Source: Nitriliruptoria bacterium (GTDB taxonomy: Bacteria; Actinomycetota; Nitriliruptoria; Euzebyales; Egibacteraceae). Taken from it: a DNA stretch of 33,690 nt. Shown in pieces: positions 921 through 12,496 of this stretch; within the stretch, counting starts at the first letter, position 1, and the number at the start of each line of letters is the position of its first letter. The stretch lies in the NCBI GenBank assembly GCA_003550425.1, contig PUKE01000017.1:1-33690 (forward strand), read 5' to 3'. The translations under genes were made by a program, and so were the position numbers. Under the pieces are notes generated by a model, which did not search any database, was not told where the DNA came from, and worked only from the letters and a program-made list of their open reading frames with translations.

Positions 921-2237
921 ATGTCCCCAGCCGACCGCGATCCCCGCGATCCCCTCGCCGCCGCGGCCGCCGGGGCTCGCGACCACCGGCCCGGCGCCCC
1001 ACCGGCGGGTCCGCCGCCCGGCCCGTCGTGGCTGGACGCGCCCGGCCACCATGCCTGGCTGAAGGCCGAGCTCGCGCGCCTGCTCGCCTTCCCCCACGCC
1101 GACCGCCACCCCCAGGGCGGGTTCGCCTGGCTCGACGCGCGCGGGCGCGGGCAGGCCAACGCGCCAGTGCGCACCTGGATCACCGCCCGGCAGACCCATG
1201 TGGCCGCGCTGGGCCACCTCCACGGGGTGCCCGGCCAGGCGCCGCGCATCGACCACGGCGTCGCCGCGCTCACCGGGCCGCTGCACGACGCGCGCCACGG
1301 CGGCTGGCACGGCGGGCTGGCCCCGGACGGCGCGCCGCTGGAGGAGCCCAAGAGCGCCTACGACCACGCGTTCGTGGTCCTGGCCGCGGCCAGCGCCGCC
1401 GCCGCCGGCCGCCCCGGCGGCGACGCGCTGCTCGAGGCGGCGCTGACCACCCTCGACGCGCGCTTCTGGGACGACGCCGCCCAGCGGTGCGTCGAGTCGT
1501 GGGACCGCGCCTGGACCACCTGCGAGCCCTATCGCGGGGCCAACAGCAACATGCACGCCGTCGAGGCGCTGCTCGCCGCCGGCGACGTCACCGGCGACCC
1601 GCAGTGGCATCAGCGCGCCCTGGCGATCGCGACGGCGCTCATCGACGACGTCGCCCGCGCCCACGGCTGGCGCGTGGTGGAGCACTTCGACGCCGCGTGG
1701 ACCCCGTTGCCCGAGCACCACGCCGACCAGCCCGACCATCCCTTCCGCCCCTACGGCACCACGGTGGGCCACTGGCTCGAGTGGGCGCGGCTGCTGCTGC
1801 ACCTCGAGGCGTCGCTGCCCGACCCGCCCGCCTGGCTCCTGGAGGCCGCGACCGCGCTGTTCGACGCGGCGGTCAGCGTCGGCTGGGCCGCCGATGGGCG
1901 CCCGGGCTTCGTCTACACCCTCGACTGGCACGACCGCCCGGTGGTCGCGGGCCGGCTGCACTGGGTCGCCGCCGAGGCGATCGGGGCGGCCGCCGCGCTG
2001 ACGCGGCGCCTGGGCGCACCGAGCCACGAGGCGTGGTACCGGGCGCTGTGGGACCACGCCGCGTCGGCCTTCCGCGACCCGACCGACGGCAGCTGGCATC
2101 ACGAGGTCACGCCCGACGGTGACCCGGCCGGCGGGGTGTGGTCGGGCAAGCCCGACCTCTACCACGCGGTGCAGGCGACCCTCCTGCCACGCCTGGCGCT
2201 GGCCCCCGCGCTCGCCCCGCAGCTCGCGCAGCGCTGA
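921..2237 (+). CDS. AGE (N-acylglucosamine 2-epimerase) family epimerase/isomerase
   Basis: (alpha/alpha)6-barrel-like sequence with GGFAWLD, RTWITARQTHVAA, GGWHGGL, KSAYDHAFVVLAAAS, RGANSNMHAVEALLAA, PDHPFRPYGTTVGHWLEWARLLL. Confidence 0.88.
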   Translation: MSPADRDPRDPLAAAAAGARDHRPGAPPAGPPPGPSWLDAPGHHAWLKAELARLLAFPHADRHPQGGFAWLDARGRGQANAPVRTWITARQTHVAALGHLHGVPGQAPRIDHGVAALTGPLHDARHGGWHGGLAPDGAPLEEPKSAYDHAFVVLAAASAAAAGRPGGDALLEAALTTLDARFWDDAAQRCVESWDRAWTTCEPYRGANSNMHAVEALLAAGDVTGDPQWHQRALAIATALIDDVARAHGWRVVEHFDAAWTPLPEHHADQPDHPFRPYGTTVGHWLEWARLLLHLEASLPDPPAWLLEAATALFDAAVSVGWAADGRPGFVYTLDWHDRPVVAGRLHWVAAEAIGAAAALTRRLGAPSHEAWYRALWDHAASAFRDPTDGSWHHEVTPDGDPAGGVWSGKPDLYHAVQATLLPRLALAPALAPQLAQR

Positions 2238-2282
2238 CCGCAGCGCTGACCGCAGGGCCGCCCGCCGCGCCGCCCGCGGTCG

Positions 2283-3332
2283 TCAGGAGGGGCGGTCGTG
2301 GCTGGCGCGGCGACGCCGCCGCCGACCGCGGCCCGCCAGCGGCAGCCCCACGAGACGGTCGCCGCGGCGCAGCCGACCGAGGGCGGGGTCGTCGTAGCGC
2401 AGCAGCGTCCCCTCGCGCTCGACCGCCACGGTCCGCTGGCCGCCGATGTCCTCGAGGCGCTCGCCGATCTCGGACTCCTCCACCTCGCGCTCGTCCAGCG
2501 CGAGCCCGCCGGTGGTGTGCAGCAGGTCGCTGACGACCTCGCCGACGCTGGGCTGCAGGCTCGTGATGCCCAGCAGCCGGCCGGCGGTCTCGGCGGAGAC
2601 GATGACCTCGTCGGCGCCGCCCTGGCGCAGCAGCCCGGCGTTCTCCTCCTCGCGGGCGGCGGCCACGATCATGGCCTGCGGCGCGAGCTCGCGGGCGGTG
2701 AGCGTGGTCAGCACCGCGCTGTCGTCGCGGTCGGTGGCCACGATGATCGCCTTGGCGCGGTCGGCGCGCGCCTCGCGCAGCACCACGGTCCGGGAGGCCT
2801 CGCCGACCACCGTCGTGTAGCCGGCGTTGCTGGCCTCGGCCGCGGTGTCGCGGTTCTCGTCGACGATGACCACCTCGTCGCGCGGCAGCCCGTCCTCGCA
2901 CAGCGCGCGCGCCGCCGCGCGGCCCTTCACGCCGTAGCCGCAGATCACGTAGTGGTCCTTGACCCCCTGACGCCAGCGGTTGCGGCGGTGGGCCTCGCGC
3001 CAGCGCTCGGTCAACAGCTCCACGGTGGTGCCGACCAGCAGCAGGAGGAACGCCACGCGGGCCGGGGTGACGATCAGGGCGGTGGCCAGGCGCGCGCCCG
3101 GCGTGACCGGCGTGATGTCGCCGTAGCCGGTGGTGGTCACCGACACCGACGCGTAGTAGACGGCGTCCAGGAAGGAGATCGGCCCCCCGGCGTCGTCGGT
3201 GAAGCCCTCGCGACCCACCCAGACCGTCAGGGCCACCACCAGCAGCAGCGCGAGGCCCATCAGGACGCGCCAGGACAGGGCGCGCACCGGTCCGACCTCC
3301 CGGCGGGGAGGTCGTGCTTGGATCAGGTCCAC
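2283..3332 (-). CDS. Ion-channel (2TM, TTTGYGD selectivity filter) with TrkA-N/RCK domains; potassium channel family protein
   Basis: SVSVTTTGYGDITPVTPGARL pore, HYVICGYGVKGRAAARAL Rossmann nucleotide-binding motif, C-terminal TrkA-C-like region. Confidence 0.9.
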   Translation of the reverse strand: MDLIQARPPRREVGPVRALSWRVLMGLALLLVVALTVWVGREGFTDDAGGPISFLDAVYYASVSVTTTGYGDITPVTPGARLATALIVTPARVAFLLLLVGTTVELLTERWREAHRRNRWRQGVKDHYVICGYGVKGRAAARALCEDGLPRDEVVIVDENRDTAAEASNAGYTTVVGEASRTVVLREARADRAKAIIVATDRDDSAVLTTLTARELAPQAMIVAAAREEENAGLLRQGGADEVIVSAETAGRLLGITSLQPSVGEVVSDLLHTTGGLALDEREVEESEIGERLEDIGGQRTVAVEREGTLLRYDDPALGRLRRGDRLVGLPLAGRGRRRRRRASHDRPS

Positions 3333-3397
3333 GGCTCCTCGACCTCGTCAGCGACCGCCTCGGCGGCGACGGCCCACCGCCCTACCGTAGCAACGGC

Positions 3398-4288
3398 TCA
3401 TGGCTGCAGTGACCGTGGGCGCGCCACCAGCACCGGGCAGGGGCTGTCGCGCACCAGCGTGATCGCCGTCGAGCCGATCCGCAGGCGCCGCAGCCCGGTG
3501 CGCCCGTGGGTGCTCAGCGCCGCCAGGCCCGCGCCGCGCTCGCGCAGCGCCGCGACGAGGTGGGGCACCGGCTGGCTGGGGTCGGGGGCGGCGACCGCGT
3601 CGCTGCGCACCGTCTGGCCGGCGGTGCGCAGCCGGGCCGCGAGGCGCTCGGTGTAGCCGCGCGGGCAGCCGGGCGTCTCGGCGCAGTCGGCGTCGGCGTC
3701 GCCCGCGGCGCTGGCGGCCCAGCGCTCGGGCACCACCTCCAGCAGCCGCAGGTCCATGCCGAACCGGTGCGCCCAGCTCGCGGCGGGCTCGAGGATCTCC
3801 TCGGACAGCTCCGAGCAGTCGACGCAGGCGATCACCTCGCCGGTCGTGGGCACGCGGTCGGGCTCGCAGGTCGGGCCGACGAGCAGCACGGGGCCAGGCA
3901 GGCGCCCCAGCGCCGCCTCGGCGACGCTGCCCAGCGCCGGCCCGCCCCGCTCGGCCGCGCGACCGTGGCTGGACAGGCACACCAGCGCGCCCTCCTCGGC
4001 GCTCGCGGCCGCCTCCAGCCCCGTCACCGGAGAGGGCGCCACCTCCACGCGCACCTCGACGGGCACCTCGGGGACCGTGGCGGCGAGCTCCCGCAGCGCG
4101 GCGGCGCGGCGGCTGCCCGCCGGGTCGCCGTCGGCCTCGCTGGGGTAGAGCTGGCTGTACAGCAGCAGCCCGACGCCGCTGGCGCGGGCCACCGCCGCCG
4201 CATGCGGCAGCGAGCGGGCGGCCAACGCGCTGCCGTCCTGGGGCACGATGACGCGGGTGAGCGGTGGCGCCTCGGTCGTGGCCGGCAT
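3398..4288 (-). CDS. Tandem universal stress protein (two UspA domains)
   Basis: LTRVIVPQDGSALAARSLPHA at the N-terminus; two SHGR/THGR ATP-binding-type motifs (CLSSHGRAAERGGPALGSVAEAALGRLPGPVLLVGP; ALSTHGRTGLRRLRIGSTAITLVRDSPCPVLVARP). Start ATG chosen at 4288. Confidence 0.9.
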   Translation of the reverse strand: MPATTEAPPLTRVIVPQDGSALAARSLPHAAAVARASGVGLLLYSQLYPSEADGDPAGSRRAAALRELAATVPEVPVEVRVEVAPSPVTGLEAAASAEEGALVCLSSHGRAAERGGPALGSVAEAALGRLPGPVLLVGPTCEPDRVPTTGEVIACVDCSELSEEILEPAASWAHRFGMDLRLLEVVPERWAASAAGDADADCAETPGCPRGYTERLAARLRTAGQTVRSDAVAAPDPSQPVPHLVAALRERGAGLAALSTHGRTGLRRLRIGSTAITLVRDSPCPVLVARPRSLQP

Positions 4289-10715: not shown

Positions 10716-11105
10716 TCAGCGCACCGCGCGGATGCGGATCGGCCCGCGCGCCCGGTCAGGGTCGACGACCTGGCCCCGCTGGGTGAGCTCGACCTCGCCG
10801 GCCGCCACGAGCCGCCGCGCCGCCTGACGAGCGGGCTCCATCAGCACCCTCCAGTCCTCCTCGCCGCGCTGCTCGGCGACGCGCCGCGCGGCCTCGGAGG
10901 GGCAGATGGTCTTGCCCGCGCCGCGGCGCGCCAGCAGGTCGCGGATCGCGGTCTCGAGCGCGGCGGCGGTCGGGTCGCCGCGAGCGCGACGGCAGCGTTG
11001 CGAGCAGTAGCGCACCGAGGGCCAGTCGTCGGCCCACTTGCGGCGCCAGGTGATGGTCCGCCCGCACACCGCGCAGGGCTTGGTCGGCAGGGGCGCGCGG
11101 CTCAC
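10716..11105 (-). CDS. DUF2256 and DUF3253 domain-containing fusion protein
   Basis: [37 protein letters not shown] (DUF2256-type zinc motif) fused to [27 protein letters not shown]...[42 protein letters not shown] (DUF3253-type); GTG start at 11105 overlaps upstream stop by 4 nt. Confidence 0.88.
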
Positions 11106-12496
11106 CGGCGCCTCCCGCGCCCGCGCGAGCCGCCGCCCCCGCGCGAGCTGCCCTTGCCCCGCGAGCCGCCCCCGCGCGAGCCGCCCTCGGCGTGCTTGCG
11201 CCAGGCGGTGAACGACTGCAGCGGGCCCTCGTGGGGTCGGCGCAGCCAGGGCCAGGGGTGCAGCGCGGCGACGTCGAGCCGCGCCGACCGGGCGCGCCAG
11301 CCCGGCACCGGCGCGAAGGTCGTGGCCAGCGAGGTCCCGGCCAGCGCCGCGACCGGGTCGCCGCGCCACAGGTGCACCGTGCGGGTGGTCGCCAGCTCGG
11401 CCAGGGTCTCGGCGAGGAACACCAGCCGCTTGCCCGACAGCGCCAGGCGCGCCAGCAGCGGCGCGTCGAACACGAAGACCGCGGGCACGTCGGGGTGGGC
11501 CAGCAGCGCTGGGTCGTCCTCGCCCAGCGACTCGGCGGTGAGCCAGACGAGCTCGGGGGCACCGGCGACCTGCGCGGTGCGTGGCCCGCCGGTGGCCTCG
11601 GGATCGGGGTCGCGCCGCAGCAGGGGGTCGGCCTCGCGGCGGTCGAGCTCGACCTCGGGCGGCGCCTCGACCGGGCAGCGGTCCGACAGCGGGCACGTCT
11701 GGCACAGGCCGGGAGCGCGCCGCTCGACCTGGCGGCGGCTGAACCCGTAGGGCCGCCCGGTGCCGGTGCCGGCCGCCCACTGCCAGCCGGTGCCGTTGGC
11801 GGCCCGCGAGCCGTCGAGCAGGTGGGCGAAGAACCGCTGCTCGCCCTCGCGCCAGTCGAGGCCGTGGCGCACCGCCCACTGACCGGCCAGCCACAGGCGC
11901 GCCTGGTTGGGGACCCAGCCCTCGTCCTCGAGCTCGCCGACGGTCAGGTCCATGCACGCCATCCGCCGGTCCCAGGCCTGCTCGGGGCTGGCGTCGCCGG
12001 CGGTCGGCGGGTCGGCGCGCAGCGGGGCCCGCAGCCGCGAGCCCAGACGGGCGTAGAGGTGGCGGCTGTACTCCTGCCACAGCAGCTCGTCGCGCAGCTT
12101 GTCCACGTCGGCCGACGGGCCGCCCTCGACGGCCTCCCAGACGCGCGGCAGGGTCAGCAGCCCGTGACGGATCCAGGGCGAGAGGCCAGTGGCGCCGCGG
12201 CGCTCGCGCGGCCACACCTCGTTGCGCCAGCGCGCGTAGCCGCGCACGTCCAGCGCTGCCAGCGCCGCGTCGGCGGCGCGCTGGCCACCGCGGAACGCCG
12301 GGGAGGGCGCGGGGTCGTCGCTGCACAGGTCGCCGAGATGGTCAGCGACCCAGCGCGCGACGCCGTGCGGGTCGTCGGCGGGCGGGAGTGGCAGCGCGAT
12401 CGTGGACACGACGTGGCTGTACCCGCTCGCGGCGATGCGAACGCCGATGCGAGCGCCCGCGACGCGGCAGGCATGAGGCACGGGGAGAGATGGCAT
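11102..12496 (-). CDS. Photolyase/cryptochrome-like FAD-binding protein with apparently permuted domain order (start could be ATG 12496 or internal GTG near 12409)
   Basis: N-terminal FAD_binding_7-like motifs: [108 protein letters not shown]-terminal photolyase alpha/beta-like motifs: [70 protein letters not shown]. Confidence 0.85.

Follow-up and report, generated by a model that had tools for sequence, protein, structure and literature searches.

Photolyases with an inverted domain order are already known, having been described between 2020 and 2022. In Synechococcus and Cyanobium, Phr4/Phr5 and Phr6 were presented as 'reverse domain order' photolyases with four cysteines, next to Phr7, which consists of an FAD domain plus a Z-domain (mBio 2022; PMC9426592). 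According to that paper, the two domains are encoded in marine Synechococcus by the separate adjacent ORFs phr4 and phr5, phr4/5 protected E. coli better from UV-C than from UV-B, and Phr4/5/6 were predicted from their cysteines to be (6-4) photolyases. Inverted domain topology is likewise attributed to the NewPHLs or SPLs in PMC13274461; as in the protein described here, the catalytic domain of NewPHL is N-terminal (Emmerich et al. 2020, as cited in PMC13274461 and PMC9426592). The SPL class has been taken as the base of the photolyase/cryptochrome tree for its apparent simplicity, having an FeS cluster but lacking an antenna domain (PMC9649867); the same paper cites a report of CPD repair by an SPL (Xu et al. 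2021). A sequence-only reading of the DNA analysed here had proposed a permuted photolyase and left its novelty open; permuted members have in fact been catalogued (PMC9426592, PMC9649867, PMC9178010, PMC13274461).

The window (the whole stretch of 33,690 nucleotides that was analysed) encodes a protein that is most likely an SPL/Phr6-type FAD/FeS CPD photolyase with inverted domain order. Among the known kinds, it is closest to Phr6 and the FeS-SPLs. The features of the locus are:

10716..11105, minus strand: gene with DUF2256 and DUF3253, 129 aa (Pfam; DUF3253 E=1.3e-29, DUF2256 E=1.6e-18)
11105..12409, minus strand: CDS of 435 aa, counted from the likely GTG start, for the probable inverted-order photolyase of the SPL/Phr6 type, stop TGA at 11104-11102
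11105..11182, minus strand: Gly/Ser/Arg-rich, low-complexity C-terminal tail, predicted disordered (alignment, pLDDT, repeats)
11183..11557, minus strand: alpha/beta domain homologous to the antenna domain PF00875, residues ~314-438 (hhalign, AF2, Foldseek)
11666..11707, minus strand: Cys loop with C265, C268 and C274, putative 4Fe-4S ligands (77/77; weak EndIII_4Fe-2S)
11708..12409, minus strand: catalytic FAD-binding domain, residues ~30-263 (Pfam FAD_binding_7, PDB relatives, Foldseek, conservation)
11954..11956, minus strand: codon of Cys181, the most N-terminal of the four putative 4Fe-4S cysteines (77/77 invariant)

The ORF at 11102-12496 comprises 464 codons from an ATG at 12496 and holds the peptides from which a photolyase-like protein had been recognised. 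This identification was confirmed, the strand, which the sequence-only reading left unstated, being the minus strand. Residue numbers such as C181 and W238 follow the 464-aa ORF. In the alignment with relatives, conservation sets in near residue 30, upstream of which the sister species could not be aligned to the window ORF, and the N-terminus of the relatives, 'M..LPxP', falls at the place matching residue ~30. Both observations make the GTG at 12409 the probable true start, the ATG at 12496 lying too far upstream. With the GTG start, the divergent AlaDH/PNT gene at 12495 is 85 bp away; with the ATG start, the two genes would overlap. A scan for promoter and terminator consensus sequences around the photolyase gene returned nothing. 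The C-terminal tail was confined, in the family alignment, to the window protein and its sister species, and the AlphaFold model had pLDDT values below 50 at residues 420-435. Its coding region (11105-11182, minus strand) is built of short repeats of 18-33 nt that give a genus-specific, RGG-like sequence.

The N-terminal assignment to FAD_binding_7 held: PF03441 was matched at residues 173-247 (Pfam; E=2.3e-11, 43.9 bits vs. a cut-off of 27), and this catalytic domain was found in all 77 family members. Only ~30 residues precede it, so that an N-terminal alpha/beta domain is absent. The best PDB relatives were class I CPD photolyases of Thermus, Anacystis and E. coli (1iqr, 1tez, 1dnp and 1owl; phmmer 1.4e-15 to 1.1e-14), which the family profile also found nearest for the FAD domain; Foldseek aligned the domain with 2j07 (E=2.3e-7). 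The domain search suggested by the sequence-only reading was thus positive for PF03441 and negative for PF00875, which had no Pfam match in the single window protein. PF00875 was sub-threshold in six of the 77 family members (best E 0.026). In a homologue on a Deinococcus plasmid, FAD_binding_7 at 102-218 is followed by PF00875 at 300-395 with E=7.2e-4, below the curated score cut-off.

Since the single-sequence search for PF00875 was empty, a profile-profile comparison was needed. The profile of 77 C-terminal domains was compared by hhalign with 19 canonical N-terminal antenna domains of photolyases drawn from related genomes, giving a probability of 95.4% and E=1.9e-8 over 111 columns in register, beginning at the first strand of the antenna-type domain and stopping close to its final one. 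The score was 53.0, vs. a maximum of 22.0 in 300 column shuffles and 12.6 for the reversed profile; chance similarity was set aside on this shuffle control. The Deinococcus C-terminal domain bridges both sides (hhalign 98.5% to the window family and 95.6% to the canonical antenna domains), and the whole-family profile weakly touches the N-terminal domain of the Anacystis photolyase (c-Evalue 4.7e-4). The full-length AlphaFold model had a mean pLDDT of 93.4 and a pTM of 0.91. Modelled in isolation (AF2, pLDDT 88.5), the C-terminal domain showed five strands whose order is the one expected of such domains, and in a Foldseek search of the PDB its ranks 1-5 were all the alpha/beta domain of the M. 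mazei class II photolyase (probability 0.99-1.00, TM 0.52-0.58, modest E-values of 0.017-0.06). A search of the PDB with the C-terminal domain profile (hmmsearch) retrieved no photolyase and one irrelevant match. On these profile comparisons and models, we regard homology of the C-terminal domain to the canonical antenna domain as established, as the sequence-only reading had supposed; instead of an unrelated fold, structure prediction gave photolyase domains as the best matches.

The stretch ahead of the fourth strand is reduced in length relative to the canonical antenna domain, and 'TAESLG' stands in place of the canonical 'RRDLRL' loop; the capacity to bind an antenna may therefore have changed or disappeared. 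A model of FO-synthase (CofH) found no match in the organism's own genome, which may therefore not make the antenna pigment 8-HDF. This would argue against an 8-HDF antenna; as the assembly is ~95% complete, the point is not pressed.

The swapped domain order that had been proposed is shared by a whole family. A scan of genome contigs gave 410 relatives at E<=1e-3, and the best 80 of these 410 were nearly all from Actinomycetota, with ORFs complete at the 3' end in 79. The inverted order was kept in all 76 relatives aligned from this set, hence in 77/77 proteins including that of the window. An annotation or assembly artefact was set aside in view of the 76 intact homologues. Of 296 genomes sampled evenly across the phylum, 23 had a match at E<=1e-40, and every one of these matches extended into the C-terminal domain. 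In the GTDB family of Mycolicibacterium, a homologue was present in 18 of 201 genomes, and none of the matches stopped short of query residue 434. We take this family to include Rhodococcus, the genus from which the characterised type SPL (Xu et al. 2021) is said to come, namely from the actinomycete Rhodococcus fascians. The window family resembles the SPLs as described in its class I/III-like catalytic region, the absence of an N-terminal alpha/beta domain and the four cysteines of many SPLs; the four conserved in the FeS-SPL subset occur in 77/77 members. It differs in that the class is described as lacking an alpha/beta domain, whereas the actinobacterial proteins have one at the C-terminus. 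The presence of this domain in actinobacterial members of a class described as 'lacking' one may be new.

The inverted order could have arisen in the same enzyme not through circular permutation of a two-domain photolyase but through the joining of two separate proteins, one catalytic and one an antenna-type domain standing alone, which we consider a substantial possibility, though clearly on the lower side of even. It is favoured by the separate adjacent ORFs phr4 and phr5 of marine Synechococcus (PMC9426592) and by the FAD domain, which lacks its canonical C-terminal end and has the Cys loop instead. On the other hand, the linked architecture occurs in both Actinomycetota and Deinococcota, and the tree does not settle whether it is derived or ancestral. 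In that FAD-domain tree, the actinobacterial SPLs, Deinococcus, NewPHL, Persicobacter, class I and FeS-BCP sequences each formed one group; the branching order among the inverted groups was not separated, long branches meet, and FeS-BCP formed a separate branch with 100/100 support.

Whichever way the order arose, the catalytic domain is conserved at its active site. In E. coli PhrB numbering, the aligned positions corresponding to E274, W277, N341, W359, N378, W382 and W384 (here E137, W140, N197, W215, N234, W238 and W240) were invariant in the 77 sequences. The place of M345 holds Met in 72/77 and Leu in 5/77, among them the window protein (L201). At the places of R278, R342 and D374, the whole clade (77 sequences) has Q, Q and S instead, so contacts to FAD or DNA may differ. 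The N341 place is occupied by Asn in CPD photolyases and by His in (6-4) enzymes. Overall, the active-site residues look like those of a CPD photolyase and not like those of a (6-4) enzyme. The class I CPD photolyase E. coli PhrB is like the window protein in its catalytic domain and CPD-site residues, and its alpha/beta domain is homologous; it differs in its opposite domain order, the absence of FeS cysteines and a longer C-terminus of the FAD domain.

Four cysteines, a signature that escaped the sequence-only reading although it had the domain order right, were invariant in 77/77 sequences (C181, C265, C268 and C274) and probably bind a 4Fe-4S cluster. The last three form a C-x2-C-x5-C loop shortly downstream of the GWQW motif, at the position from which a canonical FAD domain would run on into its C-terminal part, and this loop gave a weak Pfam match to EndIII_4Fe-2S (E=0.3). 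Their spacing is 84-3-6, vs. 85-3-6 in Synechococcus Phr4, whose C169, C254, C257 and C263 were taken by the authors as FeS ligands (PMC9426592). Compared by description, Phr4/Phr5/Phr6 thus share with the window protein an FAD domain first, an alpha/beta domain second and four cysteines at near-identical spacing; they differ in being cyanobacterial, often split into two ORFs and predicted to be (6-4) enzymes, whereas the site here is of the CPD type. The alphaproteobacterial NewPHL-like proteins have no FeS cysteines; the 'Z' domain at their C-terminus gave no profile link to that of the window protein (hhalign probability 0.3%). FeS-BCP (A. tumefaciens PhrB) has the four-cysteine iron-sulfur signature in common with the window protein but differs in its N-terminal PF04244 domain, its separate tree branch and its (6-4) specificity; PF04244 had no Pfam match in the window protein, the genome's PF04244 gene lying elsewhere.

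The genome also encodes a class I photolyase (contig C225) and an FeS-BCP (6-4) photolyase (contig C161). Together with the SPL, these make up the same trio as PhrA, PhrB and PhrC of S. elongatus (PMC9178010), of which PhrC is, like the R. fascians protein, a characterised SPL. Among 61 relatives, 19 of the 20 genomes with an SPL also had an FeS-BCP gene (Fisher p=4e-9, uncorrected for kinship).

Given its cysteines, the protein could instead be an inverted-order, FeS-containing (6-4) photolyase, the specificity predicted for Phr4/5/6 in the Synechococcus study. This would agree with the four FeS cysteines, which FeS-BCP has too, and with the stronger protection of E. coli by phr4/5 against UV-C than UV-B (PMC9426592). 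We nevertheless judge it improbable: the active site is of the CPD type (N197, W140 and E137), the FAD domain is nearest to class I CPD photolyases, FeS-BCP sits on its own 100/100 branch, the genome already has an FeS-BCP, and an SPL is reported to repair CPDs (PMC9649867).

The gene immediately downstream of the probable CPD photolyase, also missed at first, encodes DUF2256 and DUF3253. Its GTG start at 11105 overlaps the photolyase stop (GTGA), and the two genes are likely translationally coupled, judging by this overlap. In 21 of 80 loci, a DUF2256-DUF3253 homologue directly adjoined the photolyase gene and shared its strand (19 upstream, 2 downstream), with an overlap of a few bases in nearly all of these pairs; in four more, it lay nearby on the opposite strand. 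Of 15 genomes with DUF2256 among the 61 relatives, 13 carried an SPL (Fisher p=9e-7) and 14 an FeS-BCP gene (p=5e-6), both values uncorrected for kinship. The encoded protein looks like a functional partner of the photolyase. In the literature library searched, no paper named DUF2256 together with photolyase, and the abutting gene in 21/80 loci may be a new observation.

The same coupled gene, unexplained as it is, leaves some room for an inverted-order photoreceptor or signalling flavoprotein (a bacterial cryptochrome) without DNA repair, a reading also favoured by several changes at the FAD site and by the fact that some FeS-BCP relatives were originally named cryptochromes; it appears about as unlikely as a (6-4) specificity, since the residues contacting the CPD are invariant in 77 sequences and the gene tracks with photolyase genes. 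It is very improbable that convergence made an unrelated Rossmann-like domain in the C-terminal half resemble the antenna domain, with no real domain swap: the missing significant PF00875 match in the single sequence, the domain-profile search of the PDB without a photolyase and the modest Foldseek E-values (0.017-0.1) are outweighed by an hhalign E=1.9e-8 across the whole domain in register with far lower shuffles, by the Deinococcus protein (PF00875 E=7.2e-4; bridging matches of 98.5% and 95.6%) and by a Foldseek probability of 1.00 to photolyase domains.

In the CPD photolyase that we favour, the N-terminal helical domain would bind FAD and probably also a 4Fe-4S cluster, the latter probably structural or aiding redox tuning. 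A cyclobutane pyrimidine dimer would be flipped into the usual pocket, and blue light would excite FADH-, from which an electron would pass to the flipped-out dimer and split it; W238 and W215 stand at the places of two of the E. coli reducing tryptophans. The C-terminal alpha/beta domain, presumably a relocated and shortened relative of the antenna domain, probably forms a lid over the FAD cavity and might, or might not, carry an antenna pigment. More broadly, we suggest, at a little short of an even chance, that of the 'short photolyases' proposed as ancestors of the family without an antenna domain, at least the FeS-containing actinobacterial and deinococcal ones carry a homologous C-terminal antenna-type domain, are rearranged rather than primitive, and work with the adjacently encoded DUF2256-DUF3253 protein. 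If actinobacterial SPLs do carry an antenna-type domain, the simplicity argument for rooting the tree at the SPLs weakens, and the swap in order becomes an event needing explanation. The coupled gene offers a testable link of DUF2256 and DUF3253, both of unknown function, to light-driven DNA repair.

Several further loci were observed in the course of the scan. In two genomes, the inverted photolyase gene adjoins the FeS-BCP (6-4) gene (L157 1063-3878 in G035; L156 ~1193-4134 in G024), an arrangement that would amount to a combined CPD plus (6-4) photorepair operon. Proteins on Persicobacter plasmids (Bacteroidota; L152 and L153) have the FAD domain first, a C-terminal segment ending in 'SFFAYWKK' and no FeS cysteines; hhalign gave no profile link between this segment and the actinobacterial C-terminal domain, and these proteins are possibly another inverted group. 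Photolyase loci of the actinobacterial type also appeared under the titles Rubrivirga sp. NP52 (L091) and Bifidobacterium breve (L039, L042, L048, L057, L088 and L095), which are probably mis-binned or mislabelled metagenome assemblies.
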